The notes beneath the pieces are model-generated. The model made no database searches and had not been told where the DNA came from. It saw nothing but the letters and a program-made list of their open reading frames with translations. This document shows, piece after piece, positions 2,737 through 61,488 of a stretch of DNA of 64,000 nucleotides. This DNA is from Pseudidiomarina marina (GTDB lineage: Bacteria > Pseudomonadota > Gammaproteobacteria > Enterobacterales > Alteromonadaceae), in contig NZ_PIPZ01000001.1 in assembly GCF_003987045.1 (NCBI RefSeq), positions 744,001 through 808,000 of the forward strand. Direction: 5' to 3'. Each line of letters starts with the position of its first letter. Position 1 is the stretch's first letter. A program made the position numbers and the translations under genes.

Positions 2737-2825
2737 CGATATTAGCTATTGGATATTAGATATTAGCTCTGATGTATCGGGCTTTGGTGTTTTAACTAAT
2801 ATCTAATATCCAATAGCTAATATCG
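2737..2825. repeat. Family 1 heptamer inverted repeat, copy A
   Basis: Two perfect 30-nt arms (2737-2766 and 2796-2825) are exact reverse complements around a 29-nt loop. Each arm is a run of 7-nt units (GATATTA, GCTATTG, GATATTA, GATATTA). Near-identical arms occur at 61387-61466, and an expanded version occurs at 46139-46247. The loop starts with TCTGATGT, as does the loop of the 61.4-kb copy. This copy lies between the divergent thiolase and liuR, 18 nt from the putative LiuR operator, so it could affect both transcripts. It would form a long hairpin in RNA or a cruciform in DNA, and it carries no T-tract. Confidence 0.9.
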
Positions 2826-25816: not shown

Positions 25817-25917
25817 GGTAGGTTCTCCGAAGTTGTTCCGTTCTTTGCCATAAGATACCCTAATAGCACTAAGTTCGCATCCAAAGATGTACGTTGATAG
25901 ATACAAATCGAGTGGTT

Positions 25918-26421
25918 ATGAGTGAAGATTCAGACGATTTCGCACTGTTTCGTGAGCAAGTAAAGGTCGATCGCCGCATTCGCAGCGAAACCGTGCAAGC
26001 GCCGCGCCCCAAACGAGCCAGGAAACCTTCAGGCTCGAATACCCCTGAACGCCAACAGCAGGCGGAGTTTTTCTTTTCTGATACCTTTCGAGCGCATTTC
26101 CCCGAAGGTCCCGTACGCTATTGTGCAGAAGGCGAATCATCGCACTTACTCAAGCAGCTTCGCCGCGGCGATTATCCACCCGAATTATTTCTTGATTTAC
26201 ACGGTATGACGCAAGCCGAGGCCAAGCGCGAAATCGCCGCGCTACTGCATGCTTGTACAAAACAGAATATTGACTGTTGTTCCATTATGAGTGGTCACGG
26301 GAAGGGTATTTTAAAGGAGAATTTACCGCATTGGTTGGTACAGCATCCGGCGGTGCGAGCGTTTCATCAGGCGCCTGCGGCTCACGGTGGCAACGCCGCC
26401 CTCCTCATCCTCATTCGTTAA
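25918..26421 (+). CDS. smrB: SmrB ribosome-rescue endonuclease, C-terminus altered by a repeat
   Basis: A 167-residue Smr-domain protein. E. coli SmrB cuts mRNA at collided ribosomes. The DLHGMTQAEAKREI motif (about 98-111) and the SGHGKGILK loop (about 128-136) are the two Smr signatures; the N-terminal half is basic. ATG 25918 has an upstream GAGTGG. The C-terminus ends AALLILIR, with the last codons (ATT CGT TAA) formed by the heptamer repeat that starts at 26416. E. coli SmrB, as I recall it, continues about ten residues further (EEWLPPELP type), so the repeat seems to have replaced the original end. Confidence 0.93.
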   Translation: MSEDSDDFALFREQVKVDRRIRSETVQAPRPKRARKPSGSNTPERQQQAEFFFSDTFRAHFPEGPVRYCAEGESSHLLKQLRRGDYPPELFLDLHGMTQAEAKREIAALLHACTKQNIDCCSIMSGHGKGILKENLPHWLVQHPAVRAFHQAPAAHGGNAALLILIR

Positions 26422-26570
26422 TCGTTAATCGTTATTCGTTATTCGTTATTCGTTATTCGTTATTCGTTATTCGTTATTCGTACGTTCGCTTCGCTCACTG
26501 TTCGTCCGTGCTTCGCACTGTTCGAAGAGCGCAGCGGACGAACAGCGTAGCGCACGAATAACGAATAACG
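26416..26570. repeat. Family 2 heptamer element, copy B
   Basis: The left arm is nine tandem 7-nt units: two CGTTAAT then seven CGTTATT (26416-26478). The right arm has only two AATAACG units ending at 26570. Between them is a GC-richer core containing nested inverted repeats, for example CTGTTCGTCCG (26498-26508) with CGGACGAACAG (26535-26545). The first 26 nt of the core (26479-26504) match 47091-47116 at 25 of 26 positions. CGAACAGCGTAGCGCACG (26539-26556) occurs exactly, inverted, at 42083-42100. The element overlaps the smrB stop and ends 5 nt before the sixA stop. Confidence 0.92.
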
Positions 26571-26574
26571 GTTT

Positions 26575-27066
26575 TTAAGGAACGACCATGCGGATGAAGT
26601 CGGCTCGCTGCATCGCCACATCCAACTTCAACTCCGCCATCCCAGCCGTCGGAAACAACAACGGCGGCGTTTTCTTATCCAGCGTCGCCACAAGATAGCT
26701 CACAAACGGCATATGCGACACCAACACAATGGTTTCAGCGTTCGGATAGCGGCTTTGCAACATTGCAAAAAACCAATCACAGAATTCTTGCGGATCGCTT
26801 TCAGGAATCGCATCATCAGCAACATCGCGGTGACTGGCGGGAGTAATGGATTCAACAATGGTCGCGGTTTGCTGGGCACGAATAAATGGGCTGGCTAATA
26901 ACCAATCGAATTGCGTTCCCTGTTCTTGCATGTAGCTTTTCAGCCAATCGGCACTTGCCAACACCTCACTCTCACCGAGCGTGCTTAGCGGGCGTATTGC
27001 ATCAGCTTTTAATGCCTGCGCTGGTTCAGCATCACCATGGCGCATAATAAACAGGGTAACAGCCAC
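26575..27066 (-). CDS. sixA: Phosphohistidine phosphatase
   Basis: A 163-residue histidine-phosphatase-superfamily protein. The catalytic RHG motif is LFIMRHGDAEP (His about residue 10), followed by RPLSTLGESEV and LASPFIRAQQTA. A second histidine lies in VLVSHMPFVSYL. This is the SixA arrangement; E. coli SixA removes phosphate from histidine in phosphotransfer proteins, notably NPr of the nitrogen PTS. It is the last gene of ratA-rnfH-sixA (3-nt gap) and is convergent with smrB across the family 2 repeat. Confidence 0.9.
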   Translation of the reverse strand: MAVTLFIMRHGDAEPAQALKADAIRPLSTLGESEVLASADWLKSYMQEQGTQFDWLLASPFIRAQQTATIVESITPASHRDVADDAIPESDPQEFCDWFFAMLQSRYPNAETIVLVSHMPFVSYLVATLDKKTPPLLFPTAGMAELKLDVAMQRADFIRMVVP

Positions 27067-28606: not shown

Positions 28607-28669
28607 GTGATAACAATGGCACAGCAATCACAACTACGTAAAAACTGGTGGTGGCATTTCCCGAGCTAG
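28607..28669 (+). CDS. trpL: trp operon leader peptide
   Basis: A 20-residue reading frame starting at GTG (AAGGAAG 6-7 nt upstream) and reading MITMAQQSQLRKNWWWHFPS. The three consecutive TGG codons (28646-28654) near its end are the tryptophan sensor of a ribosome-mediated attenuator. An in-frame ATG at 28616 is an alternative start. The stop TAG overlaps the antiterminator strand. When Trp-tRNA is scarce the ribosome stalls at the Trp codons and allows readthrough into trpE. Confidence 0.93.
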   Translation: MITMAQQSQLRKNWWWHFPS

Positions 28670-28735
28670 CGGGCGATGTATCTGTGCGTGTTAATCACGT
28701 TTGCTACAAACCCGCTTCGATAAGCGGGTTTTTTT
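28668..28735 (+). terminator. trp attenuator (terminator plus competing antiterminator)
   Basis: The terminator hairpin AAACCCGCTT (28708-28717) / AAGCGGGTTT (28722-28731) is followed by a T-run to 28735. AGCGGG at 28668-28673, at the leader stop codon, is complementary to CCCGCT of the terminator's 5' arm. It can therefore form the competing antiterminator when the ribosome stalls upstream. This is the standard layout for trp attenuation in gammaproteobacteria. Confidence 0.9.
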
Positions 28736-28832
28736 ATTCACGCTTATCGATATCAAGCGGCAAAAGAAAGTTATACAACTTTGAACAACCAAAAGTTATC
28801 GACTATCACTCAACAAGAAAGAGTACTGTAGC

Positions 28833-41450: not shown

Positions 41451-42074
41451 ATGAAAAACTTCCTAGCTAAATTGTTAGTAATCGTCGCATTGTTCGTTGT
41501 TATACGTCCAGTTTCGGCAAATGTCTCACTTGTTGTTTTAGGTGATAGCCTAAGTGCCGGTTATGGCATGGCGCAAAGCGAGTCCTGGGTGGGTGTATTG
41601 CAACAACGCTGGGCCGAAAAATATCCCGACATTACGCTCATTAATGCCAGTATTAGCGGCGACACCACCCAAGGTGCATTAAATCGTTTAGCTGGGGTTA
41701 TTGAGCGTCATCAACCCGATGCCGTATTCGTCGAACTTGGCGGTAATGACGGTCTTCGTGGTTTTAACCCAGCCACTATTTCAGACAATTTGGTACAGAT
41801 TATCATGCAATTGCAACAGCAGGACGCTAAAGTTGCGTTAAGTCAGGTGAGAATTCCGCCGAACTACGGCCAGCGCTACAGCGAAATGTTCGCTGACATT
41901 TTCCCAAACTTAGCTGAGCAGCATCAAGTTCCACTCATTCCTTTCTTTATGGAACAAATTATTGAGAATGAAGATTTGATGCAGGGTGATGGTATTCATC
42001 CGAATCGCGAGGCACAGCCGCTCATCGCCGATATTATGGAACCGCATCTACTGGAATTGATTGACAAGCGTTGA
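41451..42074 (+). CDS. tesA: Periplasmic acyl-CoA thioesterase/arylesterase (GDSL lipase)
   Basis: A 207-residue SGNH hydrolase with a signal peptide (cleavage near VSA|NVS). Block I is VVLGDSLSAGYG with the nucleophilic serine, block III is ELGGNDGLRG, and block V DGIHPN has the catalytic Asp and His. This is the TesA multifunctional thioesterase/protease I/lysophospholipase L1 family. Its last codons AAG CGT TGA merge with the start of a family 2 repeat at 42069, which provides the stop codon. Confidence 0.95.
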   Translation: MKNFLAKLLVIVALFVVIRPVSANVSLVVLGDSLSAGYGMAQSESWVGVLQQRWAEKYPDITLINASISGDTTQGALNRLAGVIERHQPDAVFVELGGNDGLRGFNPATISDNLVQIIMQLQQQDAKVALSQVRIPPNYGQRYSEMFADIFPNLAEQHQVPLIPFFMEQIIENEDLMQGDGIHPNREAQPLIADIMEPHLLELIDKR

Positions 42075-42238
42075 TCGTTGTTCGTGCGCTACGCTGTTCG
42101 GAAAGACGTTACTAGTTATTCGTTATTGGTTATTCGTTAAAGATAGAAAGAAGCACTAACGACTTAGGTTTTGGTTTTGGTTTTGATTTTGATTTTTCGA
42201 AGAGTGAGCGAATCGAACGTTCGAATAACGAATAACGC
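42069..42238. repeat. Family 2 heptamer element, copy C (composite)
   Basis: Starts with CGTTGAT CGTTGTT at the tesA stop, followed by CGTGCGCTACGCTGTTCG (42083-42100), which is the exact inverse of 26539-26556. CGTTATT-type units follow around 42114-42138, and the right end has CGAATAACGAATAACG (42222-42237). Inside, 42167-42197 is a separate hexamer run, GGTTTT three times then GATTTT twice. The element fills the convergent gap between tesA and the tRNA-Glu genes, where no ordinary terminator is visible. Confidence 0.85.
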
Positions 42239-42254
42239 TTTTGCTTTTAAGAAG

Positions 42255-42330
42255 TGGCGTCCCCTAGGGGATTCGAACCCCTGTTACCGCCGTGAAAGGG
42301 CGGTGTCCTAGGCCTCTAGACGAAGGGGAC
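42255..42330 (-). tRNA. tRNA-Glu(TTC), copy 3 of the operon
   Basis: A 76-nt cloverleaf with encoded CCA. The acceptor is GTCCCCT...AGGGGAC plus GCCA, the anticodon loop CTTTCAC gives anticodon TTC, and the T-loop is TTCGAAT. It is nearly identical to E. coli tRNA-Glu. It is last in the minus-strand order Ala-Glu-Glu-Glu. Confidence 0.97.
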
Positions 42331-42353
42331 AAGGACTGAAAAAGCTAGTTACT

Positions 42354-42423
42354 CGTTATTCGTTATTGGTTATCGTTTTACTCTTTCGAATAACCAATAA
42401 CGAATAACGAATAACGAATAACG
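42354..42423. repeat. Family 2 heptamer element, copy D
   Basis: A perfect 20-bp inverted repeat, CGTTATTCGTTATTGGTTAT (42354-42373) with its complement at 42390-42409, surrounds a 16-nt loop. The right side continues with two extra AATAACG units to 42423. The loop sequence CGTTTTACTCTTTCGA is almost the same as in copy E. It lies between two tRNA-Glu genes, so the hairpin would be in the precursor RNA. Confidence 0.9.
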
Positions 42424-42441
42424 CTTTTGCTTTTAAAGAAG

Positions 42442-42517
42442 TGGCGTCCCCTAGGGGATTCGAACCCCTGTTACCGCCGTGAAAGGGCGGTGTCCTAGGC
42501 CTCTAGACGAAGGGGAC
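42442..42517 (-). tRNA. tRNA-Glu(TTC), copy 2 of the operon
   Basis: Identical in sequence to the neighbouring copy (76 nt, anticodon TTC, CCA encoded). Its 3' flank (CGCTTTTGCTTTTAA, then GAAG) is shared almost exactly with the 42255 copy, showing that gene plus flank were duplicated together. Confidence 0.97.
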
Positions 42518-42531
42518 CCCGGACAAACATT

Positions 42532-42610
42532 CTGGTTACTCGTTACTGGTTATTCGTTATTGACCTTCGTTTTGCTCTTTCGAGTAACGAAAAACGAATA
42601 ACGACTAACG
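42532..42610. repeat. Family 2 heptamer element, copy E (diverged)
   Basis: Degenerate CGTTACT/GGTTATT/CGTTATT units (42532-42560) are followed by a loop containing CGTTTTGCTCTTTCGA. The right arm is CGAGTAACGAAAAACGAATAACGACTAACG in type (42580-42610). It is the most diverged of the family and lies between tRNA-Glu copies 1 and 2. The loop shared with copy D indicates common origin. Confidence 0.8.
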
Positions 42611-42620
42611 TTCTATAGAG

Positions 42621-42696
42621 TGGCGTCCCCTAGGGGATTCGAACCCCTGTTACCGCCGTGAAAGGGCGGTGTCCTAGGCCTCTAGACGAAGGGGAC
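42621..42696 (-). tRNA. tRNA-Glu(TTC), copy 1 of the operon
   Basis: A 76-nt tRNA identical to the other two Glu copies, with anticodon TTC and encoded CCA. It lies 49 nt downstream of tRNA-Ala on the minus strand. The spacing of the three copies is 179 and 187 nt start to start. Confidence 0.97.
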
Positions 42697-46138: not shown

Positions 46139-46247
46139 CGATATTAGCAATTGGATATTAGATATTAGTTCTAATAGCCCAAGCGTTTCCTAATATCCAA
46201 TATTCAATATCCAATATCCAATATCCAATATCCAATATCTAATATCG
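46139..46247. repeat. Family 1 heptamer inverted repeat, expanded copy
   Basis: The left arm (46139-46168) matches the 2737 copy at all but one position. The right arm (46190-46247) is longer because CAATATC-type 7-nt units are repeated about eight times, against four units in the left arm. This difference between arms is what replication slippage would leave. The element follows the tRNA-Val pair and touches a family 2 run at 46259-46281. Confidence 0.9.
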
Positions 46248-46258
46248 TCGTTGCTCTT

Positions 46259-46281
46259 CGATTAACGAATAACGATTAACG
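46259..46281. repeat. Family 2 heptamer run at the DUF2919 gene end
   Basis: Three 7-nt units, on the minus strand CGTTAAT, CGTTATT, CGTTAAT. They encode the C-terminal residues LIVIR and the stop (CGT TAA) of the minus-strand gene at 46262-46732. It lies 11 nt from the expanded family 1 element, so both families occur side by side. Confidence 0.85.
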
Positions 46282-46732
46282 CTGTGAAGCGCTTCAGGTG
46301 ACGTGAAAATAGCAACATCCAGCCGGCTGCAAGCCAACCAAATAATAAGAATGCCTTTACCAACGAAAACGTCGGCCAGAGATTACTGATCAAGCTTAGT
46401 AACAACACGCCATCAATGAGCCAGCTAGCCCATAATAAAATTGGCACAACGGCAAATGAGCGAGCCACCCACTCCGGAATGTCCGCCTTTAATTGCGTGA
46501 GCAGTATAAATACAAAAAGAGCAGGTAAGCCGACGAGCAAGGCTAAACCAAATTGTTCAGTGCTGGTATAGAAGAACTTAAGAAGCCGCGAACGATCTTC
46601 CATGAACGTTAACGAAATAATCCACGCAGCATAGCCACGTAGAAAAAATAGCAAGATAAAAAGCAGGCTCAACGGCATTTTTAATTTGCCGTCTGGCGTT
46701 ACATAGCGTTCATCACCAGGCAGTAATTGCAC
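46262..46732 (-). CDS. DUF2919-family inner-membrane protein (YfeZ-like)
   Basis: A 156-residue protein with four predicted membrane helices. The N-terminus YVTPDGKLKMPLSLLFILLFFLRGY is the recognisable DUF2919 signature (Y..P.G.L..P..L...LL.L.R.Y), and an aspartate-containing loop ADIPEW follows. The function is unknown. The last residues (LIVIR) and the stop are encoded by a family 2 heptamer run, so the natural C-terminus may have been altered. Confidence 0.85.
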   Translation of the reverse strand: MQLLPGDERYVTPDGKLKMPLSLLFILLFFLRGYAAWIISLTFMEDRSRLLKFFYTSTEQFGLALLVGLPALFVFILLTQLKADIPEWVARSFAVVPILLWASWLIDGVLLLSLISNLWPTFSLVKAFLLFGWLAAGWMLLFSRHLKRFTALIVIR

Positions 46733-47058: not shown

Positions 47059-47153
47059 AGCGTTATTCGTACGCTCCGCTGTTCGTAATTCGTACGTTCG
47101 CTTCGCTCTCTGTTCGAACAGCGCAGCGCACGACTAACGAATAACGAATAACG
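47059..47153. repeat. Family 2 heptamer element, copy G
   Basis: The outer arms AGCGTTATTCGT (left) and ACGAATAACGCT (right, preceded by another AATAACG unit) flank a core. The core's first part, 47091-47116, matches 26479-26504 at 25 of 26 positions. Its second part, 47115-47132, matches 26539-26556 at 17 of 18. In this copy the core is a simple palindrome around CTGTTCGAACAG, so it may be closer to the ancestral form than copy B, which has an insertion there. It starts 4 nt after the uvrB stop. Confidence 0.9.
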
Positions 47154-47156
47154 CTC

Positions 47157-49172
47157 TTAAAGCAGTTTAAGTTGTTCGCGGAGTTTCGCTACATCATCTC
47201 GCAACGCCGCCGCCTTCTCGAATTCCAGATCTTTGGCCGCCTGATACATCGCCTTTTCAGTTTGCTCAATCTTTTGAACCAACGCTTTTGGATCATACAT
47301 TGCTGGATCGTAAGCCACGTCGGGCTCAGATACGCGCTGTTTCTCGCGACGCGGTGCCCGAATGCCACCACCGAGGTCCATCACGTCGGTCACACGTTTG
47401 TTCAAGCCTTTCGGGGTGATACCGTGCTCTTCGTTATATGCAACTTGCTTGGCGCGGCGGCGATCGGTTTCGTCAATGGCTCGCTGCATCGAGCCCGTGA
47501 TGCGATCCGCATAAAGTATGGCGCGACCGTTGAGATTACGAGCGGCGCGACCAATGGTTTGGATCAATGAGCGATCCGAGCGAAGGAAGCCCTCTTTGTC
47601 GGCATCAAGAATAGCGACGAGAGACACTTCAGGCATATCCAAGCCCTCACGTAGTAAGTTAATGCCGACTAATACATCGAACTCACCCAAACGCAAATCT
47701 CGAATAATTTCCATGCGCTCGACCGTATCGATGTCTGAATGCAAATAACGCACACGAATGCCATGTTCGTCCAAGTAATCAGAAAGATCTTCTGCCATTT
47801 TTTTGGTTAAAGTCGTGGCAAGAACACGTTCGTTACGTTCGACACGCAAACGCACTTCCGACATTAAGTCATCAACCTGTGTAGCAACCGGACGAATCTC
47901 GATTTCGGGGTCAATCAGTCCAGTTGGGCGAACAACTTGTTCCACCACTTCGCCTGCCGATTTTTCAATCTCATACTTGCCTGGTGTCGCTGAAACATAG
48001 ATGGTTTGCGGTGCAATGGCTTCAAATTCTTCAAACTTTAACGGTCGGTTATCTAAGGCCGACGGTAAACGGAAACCATAATTGACCAAGTTTTCTTTGC
48101 GCGAACGGTCGCCTTTGTACATCGCACCAATTTGCGACACGGTCACGTGTGACTCATCTATAATGAGCAACGCGTCGTCTGGCAAGTAATCTAAGAGCGT
48201 TGGTGGTGGCTCGCCCGGCGCACGCCCTGATAAATAGCGTGAATAGTTTTCGATGCCCGAGCAATAACCAAGCTCTAGCATCATTTCAATATCATATTGA
48301 GTGCGTTGACTTAATCGCTGCTCTTCTACCAATTTATTAGAATCCAGAAGCTGTTGCTTACGCTCTTTCAACTCTTCTTTAATACGCTCAATGGCATTTA
48401 AGATGGTTTCGCGCGGCGTAACGTAATGCGTTTTAGGATAAACGGTTGCACGTGCAACATCGGCTTCGGTCACCTGCCCTGTCAACGGTTCAAAAAAGCT
48501 AATACGATCAATTTCATCGTCAAACAATTCAACGCGAATGGCTAACTGCTCTGATTCAGCAGGGAATATATCAATCACTTCACCACGCACACGATACGTA
48601 CCACGCTCAAACGCAGCATCGTTACGCTTATATTGCAATTGTGCCAAGCGTCGAAGAATATCCCGCTGATCAATCAAATCGCCGCGCCGCAAATGCAGCA
48701 TCATTTTCATGTATGACTCAGGGTCACCTAAGCCATAAATACATGACACCGAAGCCACCAACACAACATCACGACGCTCCATTAATGCTTTCGTCGCCGA
48801 CAACCGCATTTGCTCAATGTGATCGTTAATTGACGCATCTTTCTCAATAAATGTATCCGTGGTGGGAACGTACGCTTCTGGTTGATAGTAATCGTAATAA
48901 GACACGAAATACTCAACCGCATTATTTGGAAAGAATTCTTTCATCTCGCCATATAACTGCGCAGCAAGTGTTTTGTTATGCGCAAGAATGAGCGTTGGTC
49001 GTTGGATTCTTTGAATCACATTGGCCATGGTGAAAGTTTTACCAGAGCCAGTAACGCCTAATAAGGTTTGATGGGCTAACCCCGCATCCAAGTTATCAAC
49101 CAAGCGCTCGATGGCTGCAGGCTGATCGCCGGCTGGCTGATAATCAGACTTGAGTTCAAATGCTCGACTCAT
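47157..49172 (-). CDS. uvrB: UvrABC excinuclease subunit B
   Basis: A 671-residue nucleotide-excision repair helicase-like protein. Walker A is [14 protein letters not shown] (about 40-53), the DNA-inserting beta-hairpin is [14 protein letters not shown], the DEAD-like box is [10 protein letters not shown], and motif VI is [10 protein letters not shown]. The C-terminal UVR motif ([18 protein letters not shown]) binds UvrC. The length matches E. coli (673). It overlaps the upstream MATE gene by 4 nt, an unusual operon partner, and family 2 repeat G follows the stop directly. Confidence 0.98.
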
Positions 49173-61386: not shown

Positions 61387-61466
61387 CGATATTAGCTATT
61401 GGATATTAGATATTAGCGCTGATGTTTCAGGTTTTTCTAATATCTAATATCCAATAGCTAGTATCC
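61387..61466. repeat. Family 1 heptamer inverted repeat, copy H
   Basis: The left arm (61387-61416) is identical to the 30-nt left arm at 2737-2766. The right arm (61437-61466) complements it at 28 of 30 positions. The 20-nt loop begins CGCTGATGT, resembling the TCTGATGT of the copy at 2.7 kb. It lies between rnt and the porin gene on the same strand. Confidence 0.9.
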
Positions 61467-61488
61467 AATTTTTAAAAACGAGATGACA

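Follow-up and report, generated by a model that had tools for sequence, protein, structure and literature searches.

Inverted heptamer arrays between genes keep their sites while their repeat unit changes among related species

The window analyzed here, a stretch of 64,000 nucleotides (C1:744001-808000) from a genome of 2.41 Mb in 10 contigs that is 99.97% complete (G000), contains an Smr-domain gene (25894-26421, plus strand), a convergent histidine-phosphatase gene, a tesA-like GDSL gene (tesA, 41451-42074, plus strand), a DUF2919 gene (46262-46732, minus strand), and uvrB, each of which ends at or in tandem arrays of 7-nt units. Two families of elements are distinguished by their unit, which is GATATTA (GATATTR) in F1 and GTTATTC (GTTATTS) in F2. 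Each element opens with a few A-rich letters (AAAAGC), followed by about four units in tandem and a short spacer, after which the array and then the end recur in mirror image. The canonical F1 element has four units, a spacer of approximately 23 or 31 nt, and four mirrored units, while the canonical F2 element has a spacer that is often approximately 76-86 nt between the same numbers of units. The elements fill many intergenic gaps, flush against genes, and within 42222-42696 three tRNA-Glu genes alternate with F2 elements. Positions are listed in Table 1. Single-strand folding produced long hairpins, with z from -7.2 to -11.3, in four of five stretches, the fifth of which comprises a right arm only. 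An Rfam scan of 26000-48000 returned tRNAs and one Trp leader, and nothing else; the Trp_leader match (28640-28737) scores 42.4, scarcely above the gathering threshold of 41. Several F2 spacers (26477-26558, 47085-47130) also harbor a second type of repeat, built around GTTCGTGCGCTTCGCTGTTCG, that has a small hairpin of its own. Species differ in the second unit of the F1 element near 2739, which reads GCTATTG in this genome and GCTACTA in the relative G011; the opposite arm shows the corresponding mirror-image change, and the arms look as if they were correcting each other.

Table 1. Heptamer elements and arms in the window, with neighboring gene ends and counterparts in related genomes
Feature	Position	Strand	Remarks
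F1 element, long perfect hairpin	2739-2825	.	z -10.5; also F1 in G011 and G020
F2 left arm, 9 units (GTTAATC twice, then GTTATTC)	26417-26479	+	first unit gives the Smr-domain gene stop, 26419-26421 TAA; F1 element here in G023 and G011
Right arm of the F2 element whose left arm is 26417-26479	26559-26572	-	abuts the convergent histidine-phosphatase gene, stop 26575-26577, offset -8
Decayed F2 units CGTTGATCGTTGTTCG	42070-42085	+	give the tesA stop, 42072-42074 TGA; intact CGTTAATCGTTATTCG in G023
F2 element, tesA to first tRNA-Glu	42108-42239	.	arms 42108-42142 and 42226-42239; F1 element there in G011
F2 element between tRNA-Glu copies 1 and 2	42348-42425	.	long hairpin, z -9.3
F2 element between tRNA-Glu copies 2 and 3	42535-42612	.	
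F1 element, arms (GATATTA/G)n and (TAATATC)n	46141-46247	.	z -7.2
F2 half-element, 3 units	46260-46283	-	encodes the last residues of the DUF2919 gene, ALIVIR, and its stop, 46262-46264; also in G023 and G011
F2 element abutting uvrB	47078-47155	.	uvrB stop 47157-47159, offset -7; F1 here in G023, G011, and G020
F1 element, long hairpin	61389-61469	.	z -11.3

The anatomy of the elements was analyzed in 393 kb of element-rich sequence from the same genome (53 pieces, 345 called genes, 16% of the genome), with gene ends set by a simple caller that combines open reading frames with a codon score; the sampled stretches are the surroundings of pattern matches and are therefore biased towards well-preserved copies. 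Intergenic arms numbered 129 for F2 and 61 for F1, and inverted pairs 54 and 21, respectively. The number of units per arm varied between 2 and 12, with exactly four in 32 of 42 F1 arms and 51 of 108 F2 arms. The heptamer preceding F2 arrays has the consensus (T)AAAAGC, and since AAAAGC is also found on arms that face no stop, it is part of the element end. Terminal inverted repeats of the kind that characterize MITEs of DDE transposons are thus present, formed by the mirrored arms and the AAAAGC ends. Furthermore, 25 of 46 F2 spacers resemble the spacer at another F2 locus and none resembles an F1 spacer, implying that copies have spread.

The original prediction was that the Smr-domain gene, tesA, and the DUF2919 gene all end in the same phase of the first unit of an F2 repeat, which may result from a preference of the element for stop codons as targets or from selection acting once it had inserted. 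The stops are real, but their placement in the first unit fails for the DUF2919 gene and the unit at tesA is decayed. The Smr-domain gene does end as CGT TAA TCG, its stop falling at offset +2 from the start of the unit that opens a nine-unit F2 arm. The end of tesA, CGT TGA TCG, is also confirmed, but the recognizable array begins 36 nt downstream of the stop; in G023, the nearest relative with approximately 87% DNA identity, the array is intact and sits directly on the TAA stop (CGT TAA TCGTTATTCGTTAATCG). The DUF2919 gene ends as stated, CGT TAA TCG, but its stop lies in the third unit, at offset +16, which is the same phase as +2. It reads two units (GCG TTA ATC GTT ATT) and then CGT TAA, and its last residues are repeat-encoded. 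Two further gene ends in the window, uncounted before, abut F2 arms without overlap, namely those of the histidine-phosphatase gene (26575, at -8) and uvrB (47157, at -7). Regarding the Smr-domain gene, which had been called smrB, it may be a different member of the Smr family; its orthologues are absent from about half of the genus, and a second Smr-domain gene is located at C1:1034025-1034555.

The identical phase at the three genes is not beyond chance, and is forced by the sequence of the repeat. Genes enter the arms in sense orientation because the arms are mirrored, and F2 stops fall in one phase because sense-strand units make stops almost only at unit positions 3-5, where 86 of 99 possible F2 sense stops (87%) are found. 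It had also been argued that a unit containing TAA provides stops in all three frames. This is valid for runs of GTTAATC and for genes entering antisense, but not for the common sense-strand units: the stop-free GTTATTC, which when in tandem is open in all frames, accounts for 304 of 613 F2 units, and only 16% of F2 units carry a sense stop. Most F1 units contain TAG, and 77% have a sense stop. Outside the window, at C3:97687 (L060:1168-2580 in G000), a 471-aa gene reads through an F2 array as VSRYSLFVIRYSLFVIRYSLF; because the array precedes the stop, its tail, VSRYSLFVIRYSLFVIRYSLFVTRKNEKPK followed by the stop (VIRYSLF), is repeat-encoded.

A strong peak at overlap, in one phase, was expected for the distances between stops and first units if the prediction held. 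In the 393-kb offset table no such peak appears. Gene 3' ends were met by 76 arms (47 F2, 29 F1), with the stop inside the array in 4 of the 47 F2 arms (three at +2, one at +16) and in 4 of the 29 F1 arms. Nor is the distribution flat, as coincidence would have it: F2 offsets peak at -7 (11 arms), followed by -8 (4) and -6 (3), and 11 of the 32 F2 offsets between -16 and -4 are at -7 (P = 1.6e-5 against a uniform spread). At this peak the stop sits just outside the array, in the (T)AAAAGC that precedes GTTATTC. The F1 offsets peak at -13 to -15; five F1 values of -27 are artefactual, a degenerate second unit having shifted the register, and by eye the true offset is approximately -13. The closeness of arms to stops is real, with 32 of 47 F2 arms within 13 nt, and the F2 arms lie at a median of 7 nt from stops and 17.5 nt from called starts. 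Gene starts, however, were faced by 74 arms. With starts faced as often as ends, the data give no support to a targeting of stop codons, and most abutting stops moreover occupy the same codon in orthologues with another element or with none. A role purely as terminators was rejected in view of the arms that face starts, which are as common as those facing stops, and of the elements found in divergent regions. The genes that adjoin or end in elements include uvrB, assigned by Pfam, and hisS, ribF, murJ, and hscB, assigned by sequence resemblance.

Sites were compared with those of relatives along contig C1, with the species ordered by protein and DNA identities rather than by a tree: G000 and G023 are closest, followed by G011 and then G020. 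The named relatives with the same arrays are Pseudidiomarina species, so that the genus is probably Pseudidiomarina or Idiomarina. Orthologous intergenic regions of G000 and G011 were compared for 24 regions with an element in G000 and 24 without. The element-bearing regions were occupied in G011 in 22 of 24 cases (23 with a degenerate F1 copy) and the element-free regions in 0 of 24 (Fisher 2e-11 or lower). At 16 sites, F2 in G000 corresponds to F1 in G011. In 23 of 26 comparisons of switched sites, the array borders lie no more than 15 nt apart, and some flanks are identical right to where the unit begins. The three tRNA-Glu spacers hold F1 arms in G011, with matching outer flanks (e.g., GCTTTTGCTTTT). 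Moreover, F1 is found in both G011 and the outgroup G020 at six sites where G000 has F2, and in both G023 and G011 at the Smr and uvrB sites. The presence of F1 in relatives and outgroup at these F2 sites implies that F1 came first and that F2 took over its place in this lineage. Sites persist between species, and the occupying unit changes from F1 to F2 at several of them with borders nearly unchanged. This conservation of sites with a swap of unit is more surprising than the shared phase of stops, and the literature searched, a limited collection, held no description of sister species exchanging the unit type in place.

The ownership of the stop was examined in those C1 genes that have an orthologue in G023, G011, or G020. 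Stops outside arrays are mostly the same codon across species, even where one species has F2 beside the stop and another has F1 or no element. For example, a protein ends KTPTTCWQ-stop beside an F1 element and KTPAECWQ-stop where there is no element, and the uvrB stop has F2 at -7 in one case vs F1 at -13 in the other. As the position of the stop codon is kept whatever the neighboring element, outside stops are mostly native. In a minority of genes the end itself has passed to the array. The stop of the Smr-domain gene is TAA in G000 (F2), TAG in G023 (F1), and TGA in G011 (F1), that of tesA is TGA, TAA, TAA, and TAG across species, and a 337-aa gene ends GLGKD-stop in G000 vs GKGKDDISN-stop in G011, where the stop comes from an F1 unit. 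Of the arms adjoining a gene 3' end, about one in ten has an array that replaced the last codons and contributes the stop. Preservation of an in-frame stop with a changed unit and codon fits selection after replacement, not stop targeting, and so the suggestion of selection in the original prediction is retained for the smaller group of genes in which the array encodes the final codons.

It is probable, on the balance of these comparisons, that dispersed hairpin elements are overwritten in place, with stops kept by selection, the elements being dispersed non-coding hairpins of a genus-wide superfamily. The units would be swapped while DNA is repaired or replicated, with hairpin copies interacting through ectopic gene conversion or template switching, and of the replacements purifying selection would let only those persist in which an in-frame stop remains close to the native stop. 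No transposase dedicated to the elements was identified. It should be noted that F1 and F2 arms match at approximately 5-6 of 7 bases over approximately 28 nt, which is short for RecA-type recombination, and that gene conversion itself is what we infer. The main alternative is that F2 inserted beside or into an existing F1 and the older copy was then deleted. Composite loci demonstrate that this course can start: an F1 element and an F2 half-element lie together at 46141-46283 in three species, and at C3:241294-241417 of G000 F1 arms are located within the spacer of an F2 element, which is nested or composite. Such composites are few, however, and many switched sites have borders within a few nucleotides on both sides without an F1 remnant; turnover through composites is the less likely of the two courses.

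It is unlikely that the repeat "dialect" changed throughout the genome at fixed sites, through a trans-acting copying machinery that writes the present heptamer of a lineage over the hairpins at conserved intergenic positions and carries gene 3' ends and stops with it; on this reading the sites at gene edges would be inherited and their sequence replaceable. Transposons that prefer stop codons or gene 3' ends, each family having inserted independently at the same favored sites, would account for the stop peaks at -7 (F2) and -13 to -15 (F1) from the first unit, and for the tesA-tRNA-Glu junction, where heptamer elements with several different units occur in approximately 11 of 26 species. The frequency of arms at starts nevertheless speaks against this, as do the 24 of 24 element-free regions of G000 that are also free in G011, the exactness of some borders, and the F1 spacer at C1:859521 common to G011 and G020 where G000 has F2, which indicates that the site was occupied before F2 came; independent insertion is thus rather improbable. 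Clean recent empty sites that would display target-site duplications were sought against G011 and none was found, the sole element-less G011 counterpart being C1:861754.

Still less credible is the spread of elements by a RAYT (Y1 transposase) or by a DRT10-like repeat-synthesizing reverse transcriptase, in which a change of specificity or template switched the unit throughout the genome. DRT10 copies an RNA template into tandem-repeat DNA (PMC12632851), and the occurrence of different units at the same sites in different species would be consistent with such an enzyme. G000, however, has no Y1_Tnp or RVT_1 match, yet contains the most F2 copies by the pattern used. RAYT as the mover was rejected for want of a PF01797 match in G000 and because its presence across the genus does not track element number, and a reverse transcriptase as the source for want of a PF00078 match in G000. 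Finally, replication slippage that builds arrays in place, without copying between sites, is very improbable, in spite of the variable unit number and of the over-representation of heptamer simple repeats in many bacteria described in PMC4692102, since mirrored arms of typically four units, spacers common to distant loci, and the conserved AAAAGC end point to copying.

Heptamer palindromes have been reported from several bacterial groups, their origin being unexplained. Rehm et al. (2015; PMC4692102) described heptamer repeats of GGGAATC in Xanthomonas and GGGGA(C/T)T in Nostoc. These repeats share with ours the 7-nt unit, four units as the commonest number, frequent inverted pairs, and an intergenic location, and in Xanthomonas they also lie on the coding strand closely downstream of open reading frames, some overlapping stops. 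Gene contexts are common to two sister Xanthomonas species in 83%, compared with 22-23 of 24 for our elements in G011, and our elements resemble the Xanthomonas ones in form and working. In contrast, our units GTTATTC and GATATTA have no G run and are incapable of the quadruplex suggested there; the published repeats are under-represented between divergent genes, whereas 7 of 22 compared F2 sites are divergent; and an in-place change of unit type is not described in the sections consulted. The formula G-N-N-A-N-T-N fits GTTANTN (F2), GATATTN (F1), GGGANTN (Xanthomonas), and, when rotated, GGGA(T/C)TG (Nostoc), which may be chance.

The intergenic TAACTGA direct repeats of marine Beggiatoaceae (MacGregor 2015; PMC4679880) are likewise tandem heptamers that overlap gene ends, and that study had already pointed out that the unit gives stops in every reading frame and that gene ends are overlapped in 13 cases. 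They differ from ours in being direct and almost never inverted, in lying mostly just upstream of start codons, and in their unit. REP/REPIN sequences, small palindromic repeats, and MITEs (PMC3116915, PMC3733652) resemble our elements as short, gene-less intergenic palindromes with dispersed related copies, but the arms of ours are tandem heptamers and the genome lacks a RAYT/Y1 gene. Literature searches for such repeats in Idiomarina or Pseudidiomarina gave nothing relevant.

The genus constitutes a natural experiment, in which close species keep the sites and change the unit, and it follows that conversion, transposition, and slippage are separable by comparative genomics. Elements that rewrite protein C-termini and stop codons also matter for gene annotation and for judging the tolerance of protein ends. 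GTTATTC arrays of other phyla were excluded as a comparison, inverted pairs being present at 3 of 80 loci under a strict test of two perfect units. Inverted pairs of GTTATTC arrays can be observed in Saprospiraceae genomes (L076:7319-7420, L133:7084-7191), and the array in L076 begins directly after a TAA.
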